A DNA stretch of 28,842 nt, taken from the IMG/VR virus record IMGVR_UViG_3300010354_000439, positions 1-28,842 of that record. The stretch is one strand, 5' to 3'. Origin of the DNA: a virus. The position numbers and the translations under genes were made by a program. Position 1 is the stretch's first letter; each line of letters opens with the position of its first letter. Positions 1-11,100 of this stretch are shown one piece after another. The notes under the pieces are model-generated. The model was not told the origin of the DNA. It worked only from the letters and a program-made list of their open reading frames with translations, and searched no databases.

Positions 1-98
1 CCAAACAGTTTGATCTGTTCGTCAGCAAGATCTTGTGCTAGGTTTTGCTCCCCAGGATGACCTTGGTAGTAGGTTGGAAAATAAGGACTAGTAGGCAT
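1..98 (-). CDS. 14: Neck protein gp14, N-terminal fragment (cut by window edge)
   Basis: The minus strand opens with ATG at 98 and stays open to the window edge, giving about 32 residues beginning MPTSPYFPTYY and continuing through GEQNLAQDLADEQIKLFG. This matches the N-terminus I recall for cyanophage gp14, the neck/head-closure protein that acts with gp13 after DNA packaging to complete the portal and accept the tail. It starts one base past the gp13 stop, in the T4 order 13-14, so the two are probably translated from one message. Only the N-terminus is visible, so function rests on this short match plus position. Confidence 0.8.
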   Translation of the reverse strand, partial: MPTSPYFPTYYQGHPGEQNLAQDLADEQIKLF

Positions 99-99
99 C

Positions 100-900
100 T
101 TATCCGATCATATCCATAGGTGGGATTGCATACTTGCTGAGGACTTCGCTTTCGATCTTTTCGATCTCACCGATAGCATCCTCATACAACTGCCTGCCGT
201 TGAGTGTCAAACCACCAGGCAGTTGAACGTTATTGTATTTGATTAGGTTTTGACCCCACTGCTTCTTCATTAGAGCAGTAGCATATCTCTTCACAAACAT
301 ATCATTATACATTTCAGTAGCATCTGTTGGATCGACCAATCGATGGCACTCAATCAACAAATACTTACCTTCATCAAGAAACTCTTTACCAATGTCAAGA
401 TACAAACGATCACGGCGCATGTTGTATCTGAACTGCTGGAATGATCCATTGTTGAGAACCATATCCAAAGTTTCTAGATATTCCTTGGTCATATAATAGT
501 TGAGGATATCAAGTGACCCGAATGCATATAGATCATTCAGGAACAATTGATACTCAACGCCAAAAAGGTTTGAACGGATTGAGTTGCTGACCAATCCAAA
601 TACTTTTGTGATACCTACAACATGCGGAGGAATTGGAATATAATTGGTTGCCTCTTCCCAATTTGTTGTTCCATTTGATGTTGTTACCTTGCCAGCAAGT
701 CTAGCAGTATCATCAGCATTCAACTCATGTCTGAGATAGCATCTCTCCATACCGTTGTAGCAGTTCTCTTGGAAGAACTGGATGGTATCGTCGATAACAT
801 TGTTTACCTGTTCATCATCGATATTGATCTGAAGGACAGGCTCACCAAGCTGTCTCTTACAGTATGTGATAAGATCAGACCTTGAATTTGGAGATGCCAT
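100..900 (-). CDS. 13: Neck protein gp13
   Basis: This encodes 266 residues beginning MASPNSRSDLITYCKRQLG, the characteristic opening of gp13 in T4-like cyanophages. T4 gp13 is somewhat longer (about 309 aa). The protein is part of the neck that closes the filled head and joins it to the tail. The C-terminal part carries a helical stretch (LPGGLTLNGRQLYEDAIG), also typical of the family. I chose the ATG at 900 because MAS-NSR is the usual N-terminus. An in-frame TTG at 909 would add MCV and sits at a better distance from the AGGG in the hairpin just upstream, so it cannot be excluded. gp14 follows one base downstream. A late promoter motif lies 26 bases upstream, in the loop of a terminator. 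Confidence 0.9.
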   Translation of the reverse strand: MASPNSRSDLITYCKRQLGEPVLQINIDDEQVNNVIDDTIQFFQENCYNGMERCYLRHELNADDTARLAGKVTTSNGTTNWEEATNYIPIPPHVVGITKVFGLVSNSIRSNLFGVEYQLFLNDLYAFGSLDILNYYMTKEYLETLDMVLNNGSFQQFRYNMRRDRLYLDIGKEFLDEGKYLLIECHRLVDPTDATEMYNDMFVKRYATALMKKQWGQNLIKYNNVQLPGGLTLNGRQLYEDAIGEIEKIESEVLSKYAIPPMDMIG

Positions 901-907
901 TACACAC

Positions 908-943
908 AAAAAATCCCTTCTTACATATTTAGTAAGAAGGGAT
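908..943 (-). terminator. Rho-independent terminator between the small coiled-coil gene and gp13
   Basis: A perfect 12-bp inverted repeat (ATCCCTTCTTAC / GTAAGAAGGGAT, 913-924 and 932-943) has a 7-base loop and is followed on the minus strand by six T residues. It starts 7 bases after the stop of the small gene at 950. Structure and T run are those of a strong intrinsic terminator for transcripts arriving from higher coordinates. Its loop holds a late promoter motif. Confidence 0.88.
926..932 (-). promoter_or_regulatory. Late promoter motif (CTAAATA) for gp13
   Basis: The minus strand reads CTAAATAT here, a close variant of the T4-type late promoter TATAAATA. It is 26 bases from the gp13 ATG, matching the 22-31 base spacing seen before other genes in the window. 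It lies inside the loop of the terminator hairpin, so transcription could stop and restart at the same site. Confidence 0.65.
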
Positions 944-949
944 CTAGGA

Positions 950-1141
950 TTATTCTACTACTTCAGTTGGAGATACTTCTGGTTCTTCTTCTTGTTCTAG
1001 AAGTCCCAGAGTTTCAAGACCACCTTGGAGTTTGATCTTATACTCTTTTGCCTTTTGGAGATTTTCTTCTAGTTCACGAATTTGCTTATCTGTTGTAGCA
1101 ATTTGTTCTTCGAAATTTGCCTTAAGTGCTGCGGGGTCCAT
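950..1141 (-). CDS. Small coiled-coil protein, function unknown
   Basis: This encodes 63 residues from the ATG at 1141. An in-frame GTG at 1150 would add MIT, but the ATG is preferred. The sequence is highly charged and helical: the stretch from about residue 10 to 45 (QIATTDKQIRELEENLQKAK and on) has heptad-like spacing of I/L/A and should form a coiled coil, followed by an acidic tail rich in Glu, Pro and Val. I recall similar short coiled-coil proteins near the neck genes of marine T4-like phages, but no function is known to me. A late promoter motif lies 29 bases upstream and a terminator follows, so it may form a single-gene late unit. Confidence 0.7.
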   Translation of the reverse strand: MDPAALKANFEEQIATTDKQIRELEENLQKAKEYKIKLQGGLETLGLLEQEEEPEVSPTEVVE

Positions 1142-1169
1142 AGTTATCACTTTGAATGGTGTGTTCTTT

Positions 1170-1177
1170 TATTTATG
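1170..1177 (-). promoter_or_regulatory. Late promoter motif (CATAAATA)
   Basis: The minus strand reads CATAAATA, matching the T4-like late consensus NATAAATA exactly. It is 29 bases from the ATG at 1141 and overlaps the stop codon of the upstream gene (1173-1175). Confidence 0.72.
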
Positions 1178-1415
1178 GTAATATTGTTCCTTCTGATTGT
1201 GCAGGATCATGAATATCATAATCCTCCAATAAAATGTAATTTATACTTTCTTCAAACTCTTTTATTTTTCGTATAGTGTCTGCAATTTCTTCATTGGTTG
1301 GAACTGGTCTTGGATCATCCCAACAAAAGTTTCCATGATTTAAAGACCATTTAGCTCCTGGTCTCAATAAATTAATTGCTGCGTCCAATCCAACAAATTC
1401 ATATCTATTTTTCAT
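1173..1415 (-). CDS. Small XkdW-like protein, function unknown
   Basis: This encodes 80 residues beginning MKNRYEFVGLDAAINLLRPG. The pattern of an N-terminal segment with LLRPGAKW, then WDDPRPVPTNEEI, then a helix, resembles small proteins annotated XkdW-like in marine phages; this is from memory and was not searched. A longer in-frame reading to 1532 exists, but the ATG at 1415 overlaps the upstream stop as ATGA. That is the normal sign of translational coupling, and the upstream frame is clearly the real gene there. It pairs with the 124-aa gene before it. Their place between fibre genes and the neck suggests a structural or fibre-assembly role, but that is inference only. Confidence 0.75.
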   Translation of the reverse strand: MKNRYEFVGLDAAINLLRPGAKWSLNHGNFCWDDPRPVPTNEEIADTIRKIKEFEESINYILLEDYDIHDPAQSEGTILP

Positions 1416-1786
1416 TGATCTTCTTTGTCCCATTGCAAAAATTCTTCGTTCCATATCCAAGAACATCCAACTCCAGCTGGCGGCATAGGAATTGGTGGTT
1501 CCCAAACCAGAGTATCTTGATTTAATTTCCAACTATCATATGGTTTTTTATCTATAAACGCATCGTTAATTGGGTCATAATACCCACCAATCGACGCATA
1601 TCTACGTCTACAGTTATTATTGTATGAAGTTTTTTTCCATCTGGTGTCTTGTCCATGCCATTCTTTTAGTTTAGACACGGCTTTCTCTTCATCCAATTCA
1701 CCAAAGTCTGTCAACTCCCAAAAGTCATCTACTTTGCTGATATGAATGACCACGTTATCATCATTTAATTTTGCATAGTGTGCCAT
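1412..1786 (-). CDS. Conserved phage protein of unknown function (MAHYAKL family)
   Basis: This encodes 124 residues starting MAHYAKLNDDNVVIHISKVD. It resembles a family very common in marine myoviruses: an N-terminal MAHFAK-like strand, a central W-x2-TSYN-x3-RR segment, a Y-A-x-I-G-x-x-Y-D motif, then KPYDSW-L and a tryptophan-rich C-terminus with W-EPP-P-P and WNEE-LQWD. All of these are visible here. No function is established to my knowledge; its frequent place beside tail-fibre genes suggests a structural or assembly role. It overlaps the next gene by ATGA. A late promoter motif lies 31 bases before its start. Confidence 0.8.
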   Translation of the reverse strand: MAHYAKLNDDNVVIHISKVDDFWELTDFGELDEEKAVSKLKEWHGQDTRWKKTSYNNNCRRRYASIGGYYDPINDAFIDKKPYDSWKLNQDTLVWEPPIPMPPAGVGCSWIWNEEFLQWDKEDQ

Positions 1787-1816
1787 GTTTAAAGATAAAA
1801 ACTACTCTGGTTCAAG

Positions 1817-1824
1817 TATTTATG
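1817..1824 (-). promoter_or_regulatory. Late promoter motif (CATAAATA)
   Basis: The minus strand reads CATAAATA, an exact match to the NATAAATA late consensus, 31 bases before the ATG at 1786. It overlaps the stop codon of the upstream oxygenase (1820-1822). Confidence 0.72.
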
Positions 1825-2395
1825 TGCTGGAGATGCAACTATCGTAGGCATGTTGTAGGAAATAACCGTCCCTTCTAACATAATGGAAAAATATCTGGTG
1901 ATAGTACGTATCTTTATCTCCTTTTAATGGGGTTCTCCAGTGAGGCAATAAATGACCTTTATATAAAACAGCATCTCCAGACTTAGTTACTAATTCATGT
2001 ATCTCCCCATTTTCTAACTCAAAATAAATTGGCCAATCATACGAAGCATTACTACTGATATGCATAGAGACACTTACTTCACAAGATTCTCTATCAACAT
2101 GTCTCTTTAGATCTTGATTTTTAAAATAAAATCTATCATAGTAATATGTCGGATATAATTTTTCTTGGATAATATTTTCTACGGTAGATTTTACTGCGTA
2201 ATATAGATCTTTATATTTTGGGTGATTGTAGCGAGATAAACTTCCAGTTACTTGACCCTCTTTTTGATCCCATGTAGACAGTTTTCCTTTTAAGTCATAT
2301 CCAAATCTTCCCCTATCCAACGGGGGATTTTCTTTTAGTGGTTCAATTATTGCTAAATTTTTTAATACCATTAATGTCCAGTCATTATTCATCAT
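1820..2395 (-). CDS. 2OG-Fe(II) oxygenase 1 (prolyl-hydroxylase-like)
   Basis: This encodes 191 residues from ATG at 2395; an adjacent ATG at 2392 is equally possible. Fold features of the 2-oxoglutarate/Fe(II) dioxygenases are visible: a first iron ligand pair H99-x-D101 in KRHVDRE, a strand region SVSMHISSN, then SGDAVLYKGHLLPHWR with H152 as the probable distal iron ligand, and a C-terminal FFHYV strand. Enzymes of this family use 2-oxoglutarate and O2 to hydroxylate proteins, sugars or small molecules; the substrate cannot be told from sequence. It overlaps the previous oxygenase gene by four bases and has a GAGGTGG ribosome-binding sequence at 2398-2404, so the pair is co-translated. It is clearly different in sequence from the other three oxygenases here. 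Confidence 0.8.
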   Translation of the reverse strand: MMNNDWTLMVLKNLAIIEPLKENPPLDRGRFGYDLKGKLSTWDQKEGQVTGSLSRYNHPKYKDLYYAVKSTVENIIQEKLYPTYYYDRFYFKNQDLKRHVDRESCEVSVSMHISSNASYDWPIYFELENGEIHELVTKSGDAVLYKGHLLPHWRTPLKGDKDTYYHQIFFHYVRRDGYFLQHAYDSCISST

Positions 2396-2946
2396 TTCCA
2401 CCTCGGTCCAACAATCCATCCAACCAACGATTTTCTAATTCCAGATTCTATTTTTCTAACTCTGTGCTTAGTTCTACTATCAAATACAATCAACGTTCCT
2501 CTTTTCTTTGGAGCCATATATATTTTTCCAGCTTCATTCATTAACTGGAATTCACCTCCAGCATATTCTTCTGGATTTGACAATTGAAGAACCACCGATA
2601 ACTTTCTACATCCCTCATCAGTCAAAGATTCTAATCCAGAATCCTGATGCCAATGATAGTATTGCCCAGGTTCATATTTGGTAAATTGCATTTCTCCACC
2701 ATCAACCCCAGTAATATCATATTGCCAATTTGATTGATTTGCTTTTAACACATATGCAAAACAAAAATTAACAATCCAATGGTTATCATTTATCCAAGAT
2801 ACGTTGCTATCTCGCACATTCAAATCTATTCCACTTAGAATGTGAGCTGATGAATTATTTTCATCGTATGGTTGACAATCTCTTTCAATTAGATCAACCA
2901 ATTCTTCTGGTATTTGTGTCTCAAACCAAATTGTCTGATGTGCCAT
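2392..2946 (-). CDS. 2OG-Fe(II) oxygenase 2 (PKHD/P4H-like)
   Basis: This encodes 184 residues from ATG at 2946 (MAHQTIWFETQIPEEL). The oxygenase core is unusually clear. FTKYEPGQYYHWHQD gives H100-x-D102, and SVVLQLSNPEEYAGGEFQL is the strand pair with the GGEF turn typical of PKHD/P4H-type hydroxylases. GTLIVFDSRTKHRV gives the distal H161, and R171 in RKSLVGW is the expected 2-oxoglutarate-binding arginine. The length fits a stand-alone P4H-like domain. Such enzymes hydroxylate Pro, Lys or Asp/Asn side chains, or other substrates; which applies here is unknown. It is the first minus-strand gene after the divergent carbamoyltransferase, with a late promoter motif 25 bases upstream, and overlaps oxygenase 1 downstream. 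Confidence 0.9.
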   Translation of the reverse strand: MAHQTIWFETQIPEELVDLIERDCQPYDENNSSAHILSGIDLNVRDSNVSWINDNHWIVNFCFAYVLKANQSNWQYDITGVDGGEMQFTKYEPGQYYHWHQDSGLESLTDEGCRKLSVVLQLSNPEEYAGGEFQLMNEAGKIYMAPKKRGTLIVFDSRTKHRVRKIESGIRKSLVGWIVGPRWK

Positions 2947-2970
2947 AATCAACCATAATCTATGTTATAA

Positions 2971-2978
2971 TATTTATT
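2971..2978 (-). promoter_or_regulatory. Late promoter motif (AATAAATA) in divergent intergenic region
   Basis: The minus strand reads AATAAATA, 25 bases from the oxygenase ATG at 2946. It lies in the only divergent spacer of the window (2947-2990), shared with the plus-strand carbamoyltransferase. On the plus strand the overlapping TATAAT (2966-2971) resembles a sigma70 -10 box, but no -35 box is visible at the right distance. Confidence 0.68.
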
Positions 2979-2990
2979 GCCCTCCAAAAG

Positions 2991-4595
2991 ATGTCTTTGA
3001 AAATCCTTGGTATAAGCAGAGTGCATAACTCTTCAACAACTTTAATCGAAAATGGGGAAATTGTCTACCACCTTGAGAATGAAAGACTTTCTGGTAGAAA
3101 ATATGATTCCTTCCCATTTCAGTGCTTAACAGATCTGGACACTAAAAATATTGATGCAATTTCTATATCTGGTGTCGGTAAATTAACGCCAGTAGATTGT
3201 TTTGTATCGGACGATGCTTATAGTTTATATGTGAAAACCAAAGAAAACAAATATGACATCAGTGTATATGATCTATCATTATCTCACCATAAATTACATG
3301 CTGCACATGCTTTTTATAATTCGGGATTTGATGAGGCAATCTGTATTGTAAAGGATGGTATGGGATCCGATGTTCCTTTGACAGGTGATTTATTTCAGTC
3401 TGGAACATATGGTAGAGAATTATCAACCACTTTTATTGCATCATACCCTGCTAAATTTGATATTGTAGATAGACATGTTGCCGTTCCCTTTCAAGCAAAT
3501 CATAGATTTGGCGTAACTCATATCTCAAATAATCTTGGTGAGGGGATGGCATTTCAAAAAACATCAATGGCATTTGGTTTTCATGAATTGGATGCTGGGA
3601 AGGTTATGGGACTAGCATCTTATGGAAAAGAATTACCAATTTCAATATATCAGAATGGTTTGATTAATAACAAACTTTTTTACATTGGTAAGAACTTACA
3701 TGATACTGGCATAAACTACAACCTTAATGACTTCAATACCAAAACAAACTTTGCGTACACATTACAAAAACAAACACAAGAACATGTTGGTCAATATATT
3801 ATTGACATGATTGAAAAAACGGGATGTAAAAATGTATGCTTATCTGGTGGATTTTTTCTCAATTGTGTAGCAAATTACTATTACCTCAGTGTTTTGCCAA
3901 ATGATGTTAAATTGTACATAGAACCAGTTTCTAGTGATGCTGGAACATCAATTGGAGCTGCTAAGTATATCTGGCACAAACAAACTGGAGACACAACAAA
4001 GAGAACTCTTAAAAGTTTATACCTTGGACCAGAGAGAGATTTTATACCAACAGGAAACCACACAACTGTAGATGAAGTTGCTGATCTTCTTGTCGCTGGA
4101 AAAGTAGTTGCTATCTATCAAGGAAGGTCTGAAGCAGGACCCAGAGCACTTGGCAATAGATCGATCTTATATGATCCAAGAGATCCAAATGCAAAAGATA
4201 AAATTAATAAGATAAAAAAACGAGAAGAATTTAGACCGTTTGCTGGAACAGTATTAGCAGAATATGCTGATCAATACTTTGATATGAGAGGACTAAAAGA
4301 AAGTCCTTTTATGATGTATGCTGTCAATGTTTTATCGGATGATCTCCCTGGGATTACTCATGTGGATAAAACTTGCAGAATACAAACAGTCACTAAAGAG
4401 CAAAACAAATACTATTACAATCTTATCAATGCTTTCCATAAAAAAACAGGGGTTCCTATTTTGTTCAATACATCCTTCAACCTTGCTGGTGAATGTATTG
4501 CAGAAACCCCCGAAGATGCAATCAGAACTTTAAAAAATTCTGATATCGATTATTTGTATTTTCCTGAATATGGTGTTATGGTAAGTAGCGAATAA
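2991..4595 (+). CDS. Carbamoyltransferase, NodU/CmcH/TobZ family
   Basis: This encodes 534 residues and is the only plus-strand gene. Family motifs are present in order: LGISRVHNSSTTLI and ENERLSGRKYDSFP near the N-terminus, the metal-binding LSHHKLHAAHAFYNSGF, KDGMGSD, VMGLASYGK, CLSGGFFLNCVAN and EPVSSDAGTSIGAAK. Then comes the C-terminal domain with GRSEAGPRALGNRSI, DPRDP, KKREEFRPFAGTVLAE, VDKTCRIQTV and PILFNTSFNLAGE. These enzymes move a carbamoyl group from carbamoyl phosphate to a hydroxyl, via a carbamoyl-adenylate, typically on sugars (Nod factors, aminoglycosides, novobiocin sugar, cephem). The length is near normal and both domains look intact. A likely substrate is a surface or virion-linked sugar, which is inference. 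Its 3' end overlaps the glycine-rich fibre gene on the other strand by 20 bases. No good ribosome-binding site is visible. Confidence 0.93.
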   Translation: MSLKILGISRVHNSSTTLIENGEIVYHLENERLSGRKYDSFPFQCLTDLDTKNIDAISISGVGKLTPVDCFVSDDAYSLYVKTKENKYDISVYDLSLSHHKLHAAHAFYNSGFDEAICIVKDGMGSDVPLTGDLFQSGTYGRELSTTFIASYPAKFDIVDRHVAVPFQANHRFGVTHISNNLGEGMAFQKTSMAFGFHELDAGKVMGLASYGKELPISIYQNGLINNKLFYIGKNLHDTGINYNLNDFNTKTNFAYTLQKQTQEHVGQYIIDMIEKTGCKNVCLSGGFFLNCVANYYYLSVLPNDVKLYIEPVSSDAGTSIGAAKYIWHKQTGDTTKRTLKSLYLGPERDFIPTGNHTTVDEVADLLVAGKVVAIYQGRSEAGPRALGNRSILYDPRDPNAKDKINKIKKREEFRPFAGTVLAEYADQYFDMRGLKESPFMMYAVNVLSDDLPGITHVDKTCRIQTVTKEQNKYYYNLINAFHKKTGVPILFNTSFNLAGECIAETPEDAIRTLKNSDIDYLYFPEYGVMVSSE

Positions 4596-5628
4596 TTACA
4601 ACGCCACTACCACCATTTCCACCTCTACCAGAAGGCCAGCTGGATCCAGCACCGCCGCCACCGCCGCCACCTAGACCGTTGGTGCCAGCTCCGCCACCGC
4701 CATCCCCAACTCTTTGTGGTGCCTCACCGCCATGACCACCTCCACCAGAACCACCATTGCCACCTCTAGTTGGTGACGGGAAACCACCACCTCCTCCGCC
4801 ACCTCCAGCGTAGGTTACTGATCCTCCAGAAAAAGTGCTAGCACGTCCATTACCACCAGGAGCAGAATTACCATTTCCCCCAGCCGTCCCACCTCCACCA
4901 GCTCCACCTCCACCAGATCCAGTATACGGCGCTACGTTTGGATTTGGTGCGCCAGAAAATCCATATCCGCTGGTTCCAGATTGACCAGGAGCTCCAGGTT
5001 GAGTAGCAGAGCCGCCAGATCCAGGGCTTCCGCCACCACCTCCAGCTCCACCACCAGAACCACCACTGCCACCAGGACGGTTGCCAGGACCAGAAGCACC
5101 ATATCCTCCACCGTATGCTACTAGACCATTAAAATTAGTATCGGAACCAGGAGTTCCATTTTGTTGATTTCCAGGATTATTAAATCCTGTTCCACCAGCA
5201 CCAACCTGAACTGGATATGTCCCAGCATTTAAAATCATGCCACTTACTTGGACAAATCCTCCAGCGCCACCGCCAGATCCACCATCAGTTCCTCCAGAAT
5301 CTGGACCAGCATTTCTAGTTCCACCACCGCCGCCACCTCCAATTAAGAGAACATCAACAGTTAATTGTCCTTCCACCTGTAGAGCACCATCTGTAGTGAA
5401 AGTGTGGACATTATAACCATTTACTGATGAAAGTGATCCACCAGTGGCACCACCACCACCACCACCAACACCAATCCAGTCAGAACCATCCCAAACTAAC
5501 ACCGTTTCTTCAGTGGTGTCGTAAACAACAGTTCCAACTTGCACGCCAGATGGCAATTGACTTGTTGAATATTTTGGCAAAACTAAAATAGAACTGATGT
5601 TCGCAGTTCCTACATTAAGTTGGGACAT
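4576..5628 (-). CDS. Glycine-rich tail-fibre tip / adhesin-like protein
   Basis: This encodes 350 residues. Residues 1-60 form a fibre-type lead (SQLPSGVQVGTVVYDTTEET, VWDGSDWIGV), a motif shared with the other fibre genes here. Residues about 70-100 include HTFTTDGALQVEG, then VDVLLIGGGGGGG. From there to the end the protein is dominated by glycine tracts separated by Ser, Asn, Pro and aromatic residues (GGAGGF, GGYGASGPG, GGGGGGFPSP), ending GGSGVVIIRYLP. This ending is common in glycine-rich phage proteins, and polyglycine sandwich folds are known from receptor-binding tips such as T-even gp38. A short collagen-like run PGAPGQSGTSG lies mid-protein. It probably forms or caps a fibre tip that binds the host. 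A late promoter precedes it, and its 3' end overlaps the carbamoyltransferase on the opposite strand. Confidence 0.8.
   Translation of the reverse strand: MSQLNVGTANISSILVLPKYSTSQLPSGVQVGTVVYDTTEETVLVWDGSDWIGVGGGGGGATGGSLSSVNGYNVHTFTTDGALQVEGQLTVDVLLIGGGGGGGTRNAGPDSGGTDGGSGGGAGGFVQVSGMILNAGTYPVQVGAGGTGFNNPGNQQNGTPGSDTNFNGLVAYGGGYGASGPGNRPGGSGGSGGGAGGGGGSPGSGGSATQPGAPGQSGTSGYGFSGAPNPNVAPYTGSGGGGAGGGGTAGGNGNSAPGGNGRASTFSGGSVTYAGGGGGGGGFPSPTRGGNGGSGGGGHGGEAPQRVGDGGGGAGTNGLGGGGGGGAGSSWPSGRGGNGGSGVVIIRYLP
5448..5465. repeat. Trinucleotide repeat (CAC)6 in the glycine-rich gene
   Basis: Six perfect CAC units encode part of the first polyglycine run after the fibre lead. Similar but interrupted CCG/CCA tracts occur near 4650-4680. 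Slippage here would change the number of glycines without a frameshift. Confidence 0.8.
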
Positions 5629-5649
5629 GGTTTATTATCTTAGTAAAAC

Positions 5650-5657
5650 TATTTATC
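5650..5657 (-). promoter_or_regulatory. Late promoter motif (GATAAATA)
   Basis: The minus strand reads GATAAATA, an exact NATAAATA match, 22 bases before the ATG of the glycine-rich gene at 5628. It overlaps the stop codon of the upstream 95-aa gene (5656-5658). Confidence 0.72.
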
Positions 5658-5943
5658 AGTCAAGATCCTCTTCAAATTCCTCTTGTGAGAAATCATAGTT
5701 TTGATATTCTTCAATATCAAATGGTGGGCGAATTTGTGCTTTCTTGGAGGCAATCCAAGTATAAAATTTTCCACCCTTTCCAGGTACAATATCATCATTC
5801 ATATCATGCCACAATCTATCCAATTGCTTTTCAATTGGTCCATATGAGAAACCACGAGCTTCATTAAATTTTTTGATCTGCTCGTTTCTAGCATCAGACC
5901 ATTCACGAAATTTAGATCTCTTTCTTGGAAAGTTCATTGTCAT
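5656..5943 (-). CDS. Small hypothetical protein in oxygenase cluster
   Basis: This encodes 95 residues from ATG at 5943 (MTMNFPRKRSKFREWSDARN); a second ATG at 5937 is an alternative start. The N-terminal half is basic, with many Arg and Lys. The middle has a helical stretch with QLDRLWHDMNDDIVPGKGGK followed by FYTWIASKKAQIRPP, and the C-terminus is strongly acidic and aromatic (YQNYDFSQEEFEEDLD). I do not recognise the function. The W-D-G-x2-G-x2-F-Y-x-W-I pattern resembles short proteins I have seen in cyanophage genomes, without a known role. It begins two bases after the stop of oxygenase 3, so it is in one transcription unit with it. Confidence 0.72.
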   Translation of the reverse strand: MTMNFPRKRSKFREWSDARNEQIKKFNEARGFSYGPIEKQLDRLWHDMNDDIVPGKGGKFYTWIASKKAQIRPPFDIEEYQNYDFSQEEFEEDLD

Positions 5944-5945
5944 TG

Positions 5946-6629
5946 TTAGCGTTCCTTTATTGTAAAAGTGTATTTACCATTATCTATTGTTTGCGGTATA
6001 AAATTCATAGAAATGGAAGTTCTACCTGCCCAGAAATTTGTCATGCCATAGTATCCATGGCGTAATTCAGAGGACCAAAGTAAAAGATCTCCAGATGATG
6101 GATACAATGTTTCCATCCTTCTTGTATATTTATTGGAATTATCATTCGAAGGTCTTTTGTGCGCTAAAACTGGAAGAAGTTCGATATGCTGTTTGTAAAA
6201 TTCTATACCAGCATGGACCCATTCTTCTCTATGAACATAAAATGTCCCAGCAACTAAACAGTTGTGATGATTGTGGTCTATTTGACCTGCTCTCTCACCA
6301 CAAATATTTACCCAAGAATCTGTAATTAAAATTTTATTATCTTCTTCTATCTGATAATCTAAAACCTCGGTCATAAAATGTCTAGCACAATCCTGTGACC
6401 ATGCTTTAAATTCTTGCAACTCTTTATACTCGTGCAAAACTGACAATCCAGATTGATTGTAGTAATGTATTAGAGAAGGATCATTAACATTTTCACTAAA
6501 CTCTGCGCTTCCTTCTTTATGTTTTTCTGCTATCTCTTTTACGAGATCATGAATGGCAGATAATTTGTCGTCATCATAATGATATCTAGAAACTACTGTT
6601 GGAAATAATTCGAAATTTTCATGGTCCAT
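5946..6629 (-). CDS. 2OG-Fe(II) oxygenase 3 (TIGR02466/PF13759-like)
   Basis: This encodes 227 residues. The start MDHENFELFPTVVSRYHYDD resembles the opening (LFPTPV-like) of the putative 2OG-Fe(II) oxygenase family PF13759, which is frequent in cyanophages. The core has WVNICGERAGQIDHNHHN followed by LVAGTFYVHREEW. The cluster D118, H119, H121 and H122 contains the first iron ligands, by family precedent H119-x-H121 or the neighbouring pair. Downstream, GDLLLWSSELRHGYYG gives distal H191, and GRTSISMNF gives R203, the likely 2-oxoglutarate-binding arginine. All expected elements are intact. The substrate is unknown. It starts one base after the stop of oxygenase 4 and is followed two bases later by the 95-aa gene. 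Confidence 0.88.
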   Translation of the reverse strand: MDHENFELFPTVVSRYHYDDDKLSAIHDLVKEIAEKHKEGSAEFSENVNDPSLIHYYNQSGLSVLHEYKELQEFKAWSQDCARHFMTEVLDYQIEEDNKILITDSWVNICGERAGQIDHNHHNCLVAGTFYVHREEWVHAGIEFYKQHIELLPVLAHKRPSNDNSNKYTRRMETLYPSSGDLLLWSSELRHGYYGMTNFWAGRTSISMNFIPQTIDNGKYTFTIKER

Positions 6630-6630
6630 A

Positions 6631-7305
6631 TCAATCTTTTTTATTAATAAAACATTGTAAAGTTAATCTTGGGGAACTATTCCTAGAACTTCTATTTACC
6701 TTATGAAGAATTCCAGACGTTCCACCCTTATTTAGGATAGCGCGATTTGGTTTGGGATAAAAATAATTACCGTTACCTTTATCCATAATCATGTCGTATA
6801 ATTCTTGATTATCAAATACTTTCCATGTAATGTCTTCTTTATTCTCAATAATATAATCGTCTGCCTCGCATGTAATAAACTCACCTCCCCATTCTGGCGA
6901 CCAATATTTATGACAGTAGAAAGTTAATGCACCCAGATAATTGCTATCATTGTGCCAACTCAATCCCGTTTCTGCTGGCCAGCAATATGGTGTTAAACTA
7001 ATTGTAGATATTTGTTCTACATCAAATAATCCAGAATGTTCTATTGTTTTATTTACGCTTTCTATAAAAGGAATTAGACATCTTTCCATTTTATCTAATG
7101 GTGGAACTTTTCCATATGGCCATAGATATTTTTTCCCCATCAAAATTTGACCATCGGATAAATTCCAGACCTTGTTCCACTCCCCATGAGAAGATCGAAA
7201 AGCATATGGTTGAAAATTTTGTAAGTCAAATATTTCTAAAAAATCTTTTTCGGATACAAACTCATCATATACTTTTGTGTTTTTAGCATCAAATGTTAAT
7301 TTCAT
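6631..7305 (-). CDS. 2OG-Fe(II) oxygenase 4
   Basis: This encodes 224 residues from ATG at 7305 (MKLTFDAKNTKVYDEFVSEK). TGLSWHNDSNYLGALTFYCH gives the H118-x-D120 iron ligands, and WSPEWGGEFITC has the GGEF turn. A lysine-, aspartate- and tyrosine-rich loop follows, then PKPNRAILNKGGTSGILHKV with distal H201 and PRLTLQCF with R213 as the probable 2-oxoglutarate-binding residue. This is the layout of a P4H-like jelly roll with a longer insert between the two ligand strands. The substrate is unknown. No clear ribosome-binding site or late promoter precedes it. It follows the fibrinogen-like fibre gene after 27 bases and is probably read through from there, making it a fibre-linked late gene. 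Confidence 0.87.
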   Translation of the reverse strand: MKLTFDAKNTKVYDEFVSEKDFLEIFDLQNFQPYAFRSSHGEWNKVWNLSDGQILMGKKYLWPYGKVPPLDKMERCLIPFIESVNKTIEHSGLFDVEQISTISLTPYCWPAETGLSWHNDSNYLGALTFYCHKYWSPEWGGEFITCEADDYIIENKEDITWKVFDNQELYDMIMDKGNGNYFYPKPNRAILNKGGTSGILHKVNRSSRNSSPRLTLQCFINKKD

Positions 7306-7332
7306 AAAATATATTTAAATCAATTTTTCACA

Positions 7333-8178
7333 TCATAGTTTTGTGTTTGTAGATAGTAAATATCTGTCTCCAATAGAATAAGCACCACCATCATTAAATC
7401 CCATATTTGTATCAATATTTGTTCCATTGGGTCTGTTGCCGCCGTAAATTCTTAGGAAACCATTAGCGTTATAGTCACCGTTTGGTTCTGAGTGTGTGCT
7501 GTCTCTAAGCCACCATCTTTGACCACTCTTTACTCTCCACTCACCGCAGTTATTTCCACCATAGTAGCTACTTCTCATGATGCATCCAGTATAATTTCCA
7601 CCACCACTTGGTTTGTAAACATGCCCACATCCTTCCCAATAAGAAGCAAAATTTCCACTGTCAAAAGCCTGAACCGCTCTAGCAGCAGCTCTCCAACAGT
7701 TTACAGATCTACCTTCCCAGAGTTCTAGTCCAAGGGAAACACCAGCATGATTATCTGTAACATAACTGATATTTGGACCACTGGTAGTATAGAAGAAATC
7801 ATATCCACCACCATCTTCAATAAAATCTACATACATTTGTCTGGCAGTTGGCATTGCTAGGCTTTTAATCCAGTAAAGTCCATTTCCTTTTGCTGGATAG
7901 TTTGTAACAAGTTCAACACCACTTGTAGCAGCTTTATCAGCGGCTGATCCATCTGGAGCTCCACCAGCCCCAGCAGCAACCCATTCGGTCCCATTATATA
8001 CTTCAAAAACTTCTTCTTCTGAATTGTATCCAATAAAACCCTGCTGAGGAACATTTGGTCTTGCTGCATTTGTCCAAATTGGAACCTTAAAATTCCCTTG
8101 AACAACTAACTGATGCCCAGATGGAATAGTAATTGTCTGTGCTGTTCCTTGTATTTCGGATAATCTTAAAGTGCTCAT
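7333..8178 (-). CDS. Tail-fibre protein with fibrinogen-like C-terminal domain
   Basis: This encodes 281 residues. Residues 1-75 are a fibre lead: TITIPSGHQLVVQGN, then GFIGYNSEEEVFEVYNGTEW, the same adapter motif found in the neighbouring fibre proteins. After a Gly/Ala-rich linker comes a domain beginning about residue 85 with GLYWIKSLAMPTARQMYVDF, then EDGGGYDFFYT. This resembles the opening of fibrinogen-related domains (G-x-Y-x-I, then v-D-M-x-x-D-G-G-G-W). The C-terminal part is rich in Trp, Gly, Asn and Tyr, with WEGRSVNCWRAAARAVQAF and SGQRWWLRDSTH. Fibrinogen-like domains often bind acetylated sugars, so a role in host-surface binding is plausible; the fibrinogen match is from pattern only. 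It lies six bases after the giant fibre gene and is likely its distal partner. Confidence 0.72.
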   Translation of the reverse strand: MSTLRLSEIQGTAQTITIPSGHQLVVQGNFKVPIWTNAARPNVPQQGFIGYNSEEEVFEVYNGTEWVAAGAGGAPDGSAADKAATSGVELVTNYPAKGNGLYWIKSLAMPTARQMYVDFIEDGGGYDFFYTTSGPNISYVTDNHAGVSLGLELWEGRSVNCWRAAARAVQAFDSGNFASYWEGCGHVYKPSGGGNYTGCIMRSSYYGGNNCGEWRVKSGQRWWLRDSTHSEPNGDYNANGFLRIYGGNRPNGTNIDTNMGFNDGGAYSIGDRYLLSTNTKL

Positions 8179-8184
8179 GGTAGT

Positions 8185-11100
8185 TTAAACTATAGTCCAA
8201 ACGCCACCATTATCAATGGTGATGATTACTCCACTATTTATAGTGATAGGACCAGCACTCATTGTATTTGATGTCGATGGAATGGTGATAGATTGGTTAA
8301 TTGCCTTTCGGTTTGTCTTCATTACTCCATATGGATCCAACCACTGTCTGTCGCCGTTGATAAACATTGTTTCTTCAACAGCTTGAGATGTCATTGTTGT
8401 TCCTTCAATATTCATATTTCCAGAAACATGTAATGTATATGTTGGATTTGCCTTATTGATACCGACTTTAGACAATCTGTAGATATCTAATCCATTAGTT
8501 GCTTCTGTCCATCTGGAAGTAACAAATGGTTCGTTGTTCTGGAAAACAAATCCATTAATGTTGAAATCTCCCTGAACGTTTAGACTATAATTTCTAGTTA
8601 CTGGAGAAGCTCCGCTTGTATCAATTCCAGAGAAAGCGGTTGTATTAATAGCAACTCTTTTTCCTCTAATTGCTAGTGCAGAAGTATCCCAACTGGTTGG
8701 TCCAGCACTGCCGCCACTGAAAATATTTGGTTGAATAGCAAAAATTCCATCACCAACAACTTGGTTTGATAGTCTATAGTTATACAAACCAATGCTTGGA
8801 TCTGCTGATGCTCCACCAGTTGCGCCAGTAAAGAGTAAAGTAGCTCCTCCATTTGTTTGATAGTCGTTAATGGAAATGCTTGTCTTCGCCTGAATGGTGT
8901 TTGTATAAAGAATACTCCACTTGTTGGAAGAACTGCCAAGATTTTGCGAAGCATCTGTTCCAGGTGTAAGATGACCTGTTGTTCCAAAAGTTAAGTCAAA
9001 ACTGTTACTTCCGTCACTTCTACTACTTCTGATTGTGAGACTACCATTTGTGGTAGCATTAGGACCATATGCACGAATTTGTGCCGCGCCAGATCCTTCT
9101 TCGCCAATCCTAAGAGAATTTGCTTCATGTGCTAAGTTTTTACCTTTAATGCAAAGACCCTCTGTTGCGATCGTCAGAGCAGCACCATCTGATGGAGTTG
9201 CTTGGTTAATAGAAACTCTATCATTTGTATCACTAACAACGAGAGTGTCTATATCAACAGTTAGACCTTTAGCAAATGCTACCGCTTCTTGACCTGTAAT
9301 TGTTCCATCGACATATAGATTTGAAGTTGCTCCAGATCCAGAATTTAAGATCTGAAGAGTTCCAGTCATGGAATCACCAGACTTTTTGACGTTCAGAGAT
9401 GCGGCACCAACTATCAGTCCTTCAATTACATTTCCTTGTGGGTCTGTATAAGTTGTTAGGGTAATTCTGTGTGCTTGGAAACTACCAGTAGCATCACGCA
9501 TTACCGCATTTCTTAATGTCAATGCATTTTGAGCATTATACGTTGATTGACCAATAGTGTCTGTAAATACCGTGTTGCCTTGGTGGTAGACTGGATTGCT
9601 GTTTACAGTAAACGCCGTTGTTGAACCAACAATTACGTTTAGGTTTCCACTTCCATCAACATTAGTTCCCTGACCAGCAACAATAGCTGAGTTGTAGTTG
9701 GGTGCTGGTGATGAGCTAGAACTAAAGTAAATACCAGGAGATGTTGAGCTGTTACCAGCTGCTCTTTTTCCTAACTTTAGATTTGCTGTTCCAGACACAA
9801 CTTCGAGAGTTGCTCCAACTCCAGTGTTGTAATCTGTCAACGAATAATCAGTCCAGTTAGCATATTTTGTTACTGCATTTGAAGATGCTTGTCCTACCTT
9901 AACAGAAGTATCAAGAGTGGTTCCAGTTACAAGCACACCAACTACCGTTGTGTATACAAATGATGAATCTGAATTAGTTGTTGGAACAACTGATACAATG
10001 TATAATTCTCCTAAAGACTGAGCTCCAGTATTATTGTAGAGACCAACGGTGTTACCTACAATAAAAATACTTCCATACTCTGCATCGGTTAAATTAACAC
10101 CATCAAAGAGAATTTTGTAAGCAGATTTTCCATTCAATGATGCATTAGATGAGGTCGCTAGAGGTTCTCTGATTTCAATCCTTGTGTCAAATTGTTTTGT
10201 TGACAGATAGGTTGGAAGTCTTCTATCAAACAGAGTTCCTGAATTTAAATGAACTGTATTTGTTACCCATGACAATTGTTTGCCATCTAATCTATCAGCA
10301 TCTAGACCAGATCCGACACCATCATTACCAGATGTCCATACTTTGTGCCAGTTTTTCCATGATGTGACACCAAATCCAGTGCCACGAATATACATATTTG
10401 ATCCAATGCTGTTATCATCTGGGAAAGCAATTTGCTTTAAACCACCATAGCTTGTGTCAGCAGAAACACCGCCTGGTCTTAAGGTCATTACGATATGTCT
10501 TCCAGAATTTCCTCCTGGTTGAGAACTTTGTAAACCTACTTCTGGCCAAGCAGAGTATAGTGATCCTGTTGTTTCTCCAGCGATATTTGCATTATTGTAT
10601 TTGTTTTCTACAGTAATACCAGGGTTATATAAAGTTGGACTTTGCAGCGTAGTTGCAGCAGTAATGTCAACGTCAATAACTTTTGCAAAATCTGCTACAC
10701 CAGAAATATCAATATCATATGATCCAGATAATCTGGCAGATGGAAGAACCCCCTGAATCATATTGGATGCGTTTTGATAGAAAAGTCCATCTCTATCATC
10801 TAAGAAGTCAGCATTTAGACCACTACCAATACCAGTTTTAAGTTCAATAGATCCATTTCCGTCTACGCCGATCTTAAATTGCGCCTTTTTAAATCTAGCA
10901 ACACCAACAGTTCCATATGGGTCTGTGCTAATTGTAGATCCCTCACCACCAGCTCTAGAAATATCCATAGAAACGTTAGCATAGTTTCTCTGAACAGTTG
11001 ATAATTTACATGCCAGTGATAGTCCAGTTCCAGCTCCAAGAACTGCTGGCGCCACAGCAGTGAAATCGGTTGTATATCCAGATCCAGAACTTGTGACAAC

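Follow-up and report, generated by a model that had tools for sequence, protein, structure and literature searches.

An intrinsic transcription terminator and a T4-type late promoter are probably fused into one element ahead of the neck gene gp13 in the DNA described here, in an arrangement that would exempt transcripts begun inside the element from termination. The hairpin and the promoter motif are conserved together with compensatory changes in the stem, the T run is tied to the presence of the 5ˊ arm, and comparable arrangements recur at other genes. The window, meaning the whole stretch of DNA analysed, comes from a virus record; it is a genome fragment (28.8 kb) from a T4-like cyanophage. 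Its closest named relatives, as judged via gp13, are S-WAM2, S-RSM4, and S-H9-1 (81–82% DNA identity).

The hairpin, the late promoter motif, and their gene neighbourhood

The element and its surroundings comprise the following features.

932–943, minus strand: 5ˊ arm of the putative terminator hairpin, ATCCCTTCTTAC (fold, complementarity, compensatory changes in relatives)
925–931, minus strand: 7-nt loop, TAAATAT (fold and complementarity)
913–924, minus strand: 3ˊ arm of the hairpin, GTAAGAAGGGAT (fold, complementarity, compensatory changes in relatives)
908–913, minus strand: run of six T nucleotides, with 3ˊ ends of upstream transcripts expected at about 906–911
926–932, minus strand: late promoter motif CTAAATA, −12 to −6, with six bases in the loop
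920, minus strand: predicted +1 of the gp13 late mRNA, borrowed from the T4 rule, 6 nt past the motif end (PMC1524935)
901–920, minus strand: predicted 20-nt leader, GAAGGGAUUUUUUGUGUGUA, counted from the predicted +1
103–900, minus strand: gp13, neck protein (head-tail adaptor; phrog_211, E=2.9e-44), the gene that the promoter would serve
950–1141, minus strand: phrog_580, a small gene (63 aa) directly upstream, the transcript of which would stop at the hairpin
2991–4595, plus strand: carbamoyltransferase gene, between the minus-strand phrog_580/accessory module and the fibre/structural genes

The two arms are 100% complementary over 12 bp and lie 7 nt apart. The perfect stem, TAAATAT loop, and T run that the original prediction placed before gp13 are confirmed, also by folding and by a terminator scan. 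In the scan, the stem grows to 14 pairs (five G-C) spanning 945–911 with a T-rich tail, and it is the longest among nine terminator-like sites in positions 1–8200. The RNA fold has an energy of −21.7 kcal/mol (z = −3.98), which none of 200 shuffled sequences equalled. RNA of the upstream gene carries the stem-loop and run of U nucleotides typical of an intrinsic (Rho-independent) terminator, and this structure is located just past the stop codon of that gene on the same strand: phrog_580 ends at 950 and the extended stem starts at 945, leaving 4 nt between stop codon and stem. A comparison with Rfam gave no match over the gathering score. The best, PyrR, reached 31.6 bits against a gathering score of 54, and a PyrR identity for the hairpin was dismissed on this basis.

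The CTAAATA motif, likewise anticipated by the original prediction, begins with a C that pairs at the top of the stem and ends 25 nt before the gp13 ATG (900–898). The T4 rule for late promoters is TATAAATA from −13 to −6, and phage Aeh1 has CTAAATA as its late promoter form (PMC1524935). The published cyanophage late motif is NATAAATA, and the genes g55, g33, and g45 have been reported in cyanophages (PMC2984593). The window motif has the form of a T4-type late promoter, (T/N)ATAAATA or CTAAATA at −13/−12 to −6, and it stands a short distance in front of a late gene. Among S-WAM2, S-PM2, Syn1, and Syn33, ATAAATA and CTAAATA peak 20–40 nt before ORFs, whereas GTAAATA and TTAAATA hardly do so; the base preceding TAAATA in gp13 elements is mostly A or C. 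CTAAATA is not rare within the window (four found versus six expected), and sequence comparison indicates that the non-chance aspect of the motif is its position and conservation, not its frequency.

Presumably, once a polymerase arriving from phrog_580 or the accessory genes has copied the two arms, the hairpin forms in the RNA and the transcript is released at the U run. The late polymerase, carrying the gp55 sigma factor, would instead bind CTAAATA and initiate at about position 920, within the 3ˊ arm. The 5ˊ arm would be made only by polymerases coming from upstream. A transcript from 920 could not form the terminator because it would lack this arm, and it would pass the U run so that gp13 and gp14 are transcribed. 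The equivalent 5ˊ end in S-PM2 is predicted about 6 nt past GATAAATA, again inside the 3ˊ arm. From these features we infer that transcription does end and start here and where exactly its +1 lies. As a likely secondary effect, ribosomes would not have access to the AAGAAGGG leader in read-through RNA.

The original prediction held that a single element ends the upstream transcript and starts the neck transcript, and this part is well supported by comparison among genomes. Its identification of the unit being stopped as the fibre transcript does not fit the window. The gene immediately upstream is phrog_580, which has its own ATAAATA motif in front (core 1170–1175), and farther upstream are accessory genes including a 2OG oxygenase. 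Cores of TAAATA precede the accessory genes at 1170, 1817, and 2971, and the plus-strand carbamoyltransferase gene intervenes before the fibre genes. The further claim that gp13/gp14 dosage is decoupled from the fibre operon is wrong for this genome. The element is absent where gp13 comes straight after a giant fibre/structural gene with a gap of 6–10 nt (Syn33, S-RIM8, S-CAM1, S-CAM3, P-SSM7, and ACG-2014d). Judging from gene order, the neighbours from which the element would insulate gp13/gp14 are phrog_580 and the accessory genes, not the fibre operon.

Two other aspects of this region were observed. The carbamoyltransferase gene is on the opposite strand amid minus-strand late genes. Also, two proteins encoded at 1820–2952 (minus strand) have PHROG matches, one annotated as ferrochelatase and the other as 2OG-Fe(II) oxygenase. 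A Pfam match exists for the second alone, which makes the ferrochelatase annotation doubtful.

Conservation, covariation, and loss of the 5ˊ arm

The fused element is present at 162 of the 299 gp13 loci examined. Both stem and loop are thus kept before gp13 in related phages, a comparison that the original prediction had proposed, and the stems covary. Among the nearest IMG/VR gp13 relatives, the motif is at the same place in 80/80 and the full hairpin is present in 78/80. The same layout with different stems is found in S-PM2, Syn1, S-RIM44, Sf-CH3, S-H9-2, and many more. For example, members of the S-PM2 group carry CCCTATCTG-ATAAATA-CAGGTAGGG, TCCCTGCCTG-ATAAATA-CAGGTAGGGA, CCCTGCTTC-CTAAATA-GAAGTAGGG, or CCCTACATG-CTAAATA-CATGTAGGG, with a T run after each, and the more distant S-BM3-like relatives at loci L234 and L245 carry AACCCTTCTTATAAATACATAAGAAGGGTTTTTTT and AGACCCTTCTTATAAATACATAAGAAGGGTCTTTTT.

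In 32 diverse sequences, the loop core TAAATA is invariant and the stem is paired in 94.8% of cells. Double-changed stem cells number 35 versus 10.8 after shuffling, and the covariation score is 0.303 versus 0.122 (0/500 shuffles as high; slid controls ≤0.105), although these sequences are kin and the shuffle values overstate their independence. In usual hairpins the stem is kept and the loop varies, whereas the alignments indicate that here the loop sequence is fixed and the stem is kept mainly as pairing. These data bear on whether the overlap of hairpin and motif arose by chance or was inherited as a neutral spacer. Such an origin would agree with the lack of over-representation of CTAAATA in the window, but it is contradicted by the compensatory changes, the invariant loop, the diversity of stems, and the recurrence at other genes, and we regard it as very improbable.

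An invariant loop with a maintained stem would also fit a hairpin acting in DNA, whereby cruciform extrusion offers single-stranded TAAATA to the late polymerase. However, many stems contain G-U wobbles, including 14 of the 32 sequences at one pair (gp13-sense), which suit RNA rather than DNA. An RNA hairpin of the gp13-sense strand is favoured because these positions would be mismatched on the opposite strand (A-C) and in DNA (G-T). In addition, the promoter is kept without the stem at L050, L143, and other loci, and most late promoters lack such a hairpin. We consider a cruciform promoter the least credible of the explanations weighed.

The gene phrog_580 is the upstream neighbour at 153 of the 162 element-bearing loci, with another gene at the rest. 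This association would be expected if the hairpin were a 3ˊ-end stabiliser or an RNase processing site of the phrog_580 mRNA that the late promoter merely overlaps. Yet the element remains before gp13 at loci with a different upstream gene (L003, L012, L021, L234, and L245), and it therefore belongs to gp13. Moreover, processing needs no T run, and the run is nevertheless kept with the stem. A stabilising or processing role thus appears improbable.

At several loci (L050, L051, L143, L231–L235, L242–L249, and L262–L273), the 5ˊ arm has been lost while the promoter is kept, usually with a GAAGGG-like leader and with the T run mostly broken. At L050/L051 and L143, the arm is mostly or wholly gone and both promoter and leader are retained. 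A AAGAAGGG-like leader start persists in several relatives without the arm. Across 84 distinct elements, a T run is found in 61/68 with the arm and 5/16 without it (Fisher p=5e-6), an association that is indicative, given that the rows are related, that the Fisher value overstates their independence, and that some rows scored as having an arm without a T run (L221–L235) are G-U artefacts of an upstream T run. A few loci (L243, L255, and L143) have the T run without the 5ˊ arm. In other phages, a terminator and then a promoter are arranged in tandem, either before gp13 (S-BM3 and the L147 group) or at the 3ˊ end of phrog_580 (Syn33, S-RIM8, ACG-2014d, and P-SSM7), where phrog_580 precedes the giant fibre gene. 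From their layout, we read these tandem pairs as the same boundary function built from separate parts.

A translation switch of the T4 gene e/I-TevI type offers another account of the element. According to this explanation, the hairpin mainly hides the gp13 ribosome site on read-through (early) RNA, the late promoter yields a message with a free site, and termination is minor. Opening the region from −18 to +15 is calculated to cost 21.2 kcal/mol on read-through RNA versus 8.3 on late RNA. A terminator scan of T4 revealed that gene e and a 259-aa ORF, which we take to be that of I-TevII, have straddling hairpins with ribosome sites in the 3ˊ arm. Good GGAGG sequences occur in the 3ˊ arm at other cyanophage loci (S-WAM2 143180, Syn1 143044, and S-PM2 115170), and at L465–L468 GGAGG and the T run are kept despite loss of the 5ˊ arm. 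The T4 switch mechanism has been described previously (PMC3014915, PMC2988022).

However, gp13 has no Shine-Dalgarno-like bases other than AAGG, which stands some 14 nt ahead of the ATG. In the window and in most of the other sequences tested, but not in Syn1 and Sf-CH3, the read-through and late RNAs hardly differ in how open the start region from −9 to +12 is. The S-PM2/Syn1 group has kept the T run and not the Shine-Dalgarno-like stretch. A terminator is favoured over a ribosome switch because the T run is tied to the 5ˊ arm, because sister phages have a separate terminator plus promoter, and because none of the four straddling hairpins of T4 has a T run. We rank hiding of the ribosome site second as the main function and consider it unlikely in that role; alongside the preferred terminator-promoter fusion, it may add a second layer of control.

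Two variant arrangements were seen at gp13. In S-WAM2 (99266, L176) and many of L001–L080, a further ATAAATA is found immediately ahead of the 5ˊ arm, overlapping the stop codon of phrog_580, and RNA starting there would meet the terminator at once. At L160–L171, L312, and L274, the gp13 promoter is in the 5ˊ arm of a hairpin whose T7 run abuts the ATG, and AGGGG is in the 3ˊ arm. This hairpin is possibly a combined terminator and ribosome-site switch.

Straddled late promoters across cyanophage genomes

In ten cyanophage genomes, 319 late motifs precede ORFs. A terminator-like hairpin straddles the +1, leaving its 5ˊ arm untranscribed, at 13 of these motifs versus 0.25 expected by shuffling, which is an upper view of the enrichment given that shuffling ignores the clustering of terminators between genes. 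Other terminator-like hairpins at these motifs are tandem upstream (38), partial (4), or wholly downstream (1). Irrespective of a T run, 29 straddling hairpins were seen versus 7.9 by shuffling. When any straddling hairpin was accepted in a loose fold scan of the late promoters, 59 with 8 or more pairs were counted versus 54 expected, which is no enrichment; enrichment is confined to strict stems, above all those with a T run. When TAAATA was required within the terminator loop plus two bases on each side, little besides gp13 was recovered per genome.

The genes served by straddled promoters include phrog_1462 (S-WAM2 and Syn1), a phrog_773 head protein, a RusA-like resolvase, and a tail-fibre-assembly protein. 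The phrog_1462 gene provides a second fused element, which reads ACCTCC-CTCTAAATAGTTAGAC-GGAGGTTTTTT-ATG. It is located at about 3166–3205 of L179 (S-WAM2 143166–143205) and about 3034–3073 of L199 (Syn1), and it is also found at L469–L471; relatives of phrog_1462 are few in viral contigs. At L465–L468, the 5ˊ arm of this element is gone and the promoter, GGAGG, and T run remain.

We propose tentatively that cyanophages use a general class of self-exempting terminators, with late promoters built into intrinsic terminators at a number of unrelated genes (gp13, phrog_1462, the phrog_773 head protein, the RusA-like resolvase, tail fibre assembly, and others). Such elements would insulate late units, optionally silence translation of read-through RNA, arise repeatedly, and interchange with tandem pairs.

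Two further arrangements were encountered. Before a giant ORF (~2750 aa) in Syn1 (78513, L195) and S-PM2 (40718, L184), there is a very stable hairpin (to −24 kcal/mol) with CTAAATA in its loop and no T run, which looks like the T4 gene e type of arrangement. In just one case, P-SSM7 170731 (L442), does the terminator-like hairpin lie entirely between the +1 of a late motif and its ORF, and this hairpin is possibly an attenuator.

Comparison with known late promoter arrangements

A literature search with limited coverage of subscription journals found no description of a late promoter inside a terminator loop. The fusion would show how compact phage genomes can fit a unit boundary into 36 bases, with a terminator that halts only polymerases begun upstream and is invisible to those begun within. 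It leads to simple predictions for 5ˊ and 3ˊ transcript ends of cyanophages and would account for the placement of accessory genes in front of essential neck genes that they do not drive.

In motif and in distance to the gene, the gp13 element is the same as the cyanophage and T4 late promoters with NATAAATA or CTAAATA (PMC2984593, PMC1524935). However, ordinary late promoters are usually outside terminator-like hairpins, as reflected by the 13 straddled cases above. The tandem terminator and late promoter of other cyanophages would serve the same function of ending one late unit and starting the next, but with two parts in series rather than one 36-base unit.

The closest parallel is with T4 gene e, soc, 49, I-TevI/II, and segB and with Aeh1 mobE, where a hairpin likewise straddles the late start, the late mRNA lacks the 5ˊ arm, and the longer upstream RNA folds (PMC3014915, PMC2988022). 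As in those cases, the predicted gp13 late start at 920 is beyond the 5ˊ arm at 932–943. The T4 hairpins have a properly spaced Shine-Dalgarno sequence in the 3ˊ arm and, in the four straddling cases scanned, no T run. By contrast, the gp13 element has a T run, its promoter is in the loop, its Shine-Dalgarno-like bases are weak and distant, and no well-spaced Shine-Dalgarno sequence or AUG is held in the helix, the AUG being outside the main hairpin. On the evidence of sequence, the terminator-promoter fusion is real and conserved and is a variant of the T4 late-promoter hairpin design, one that would link the translation switch of T4 gene e to transcription termination.
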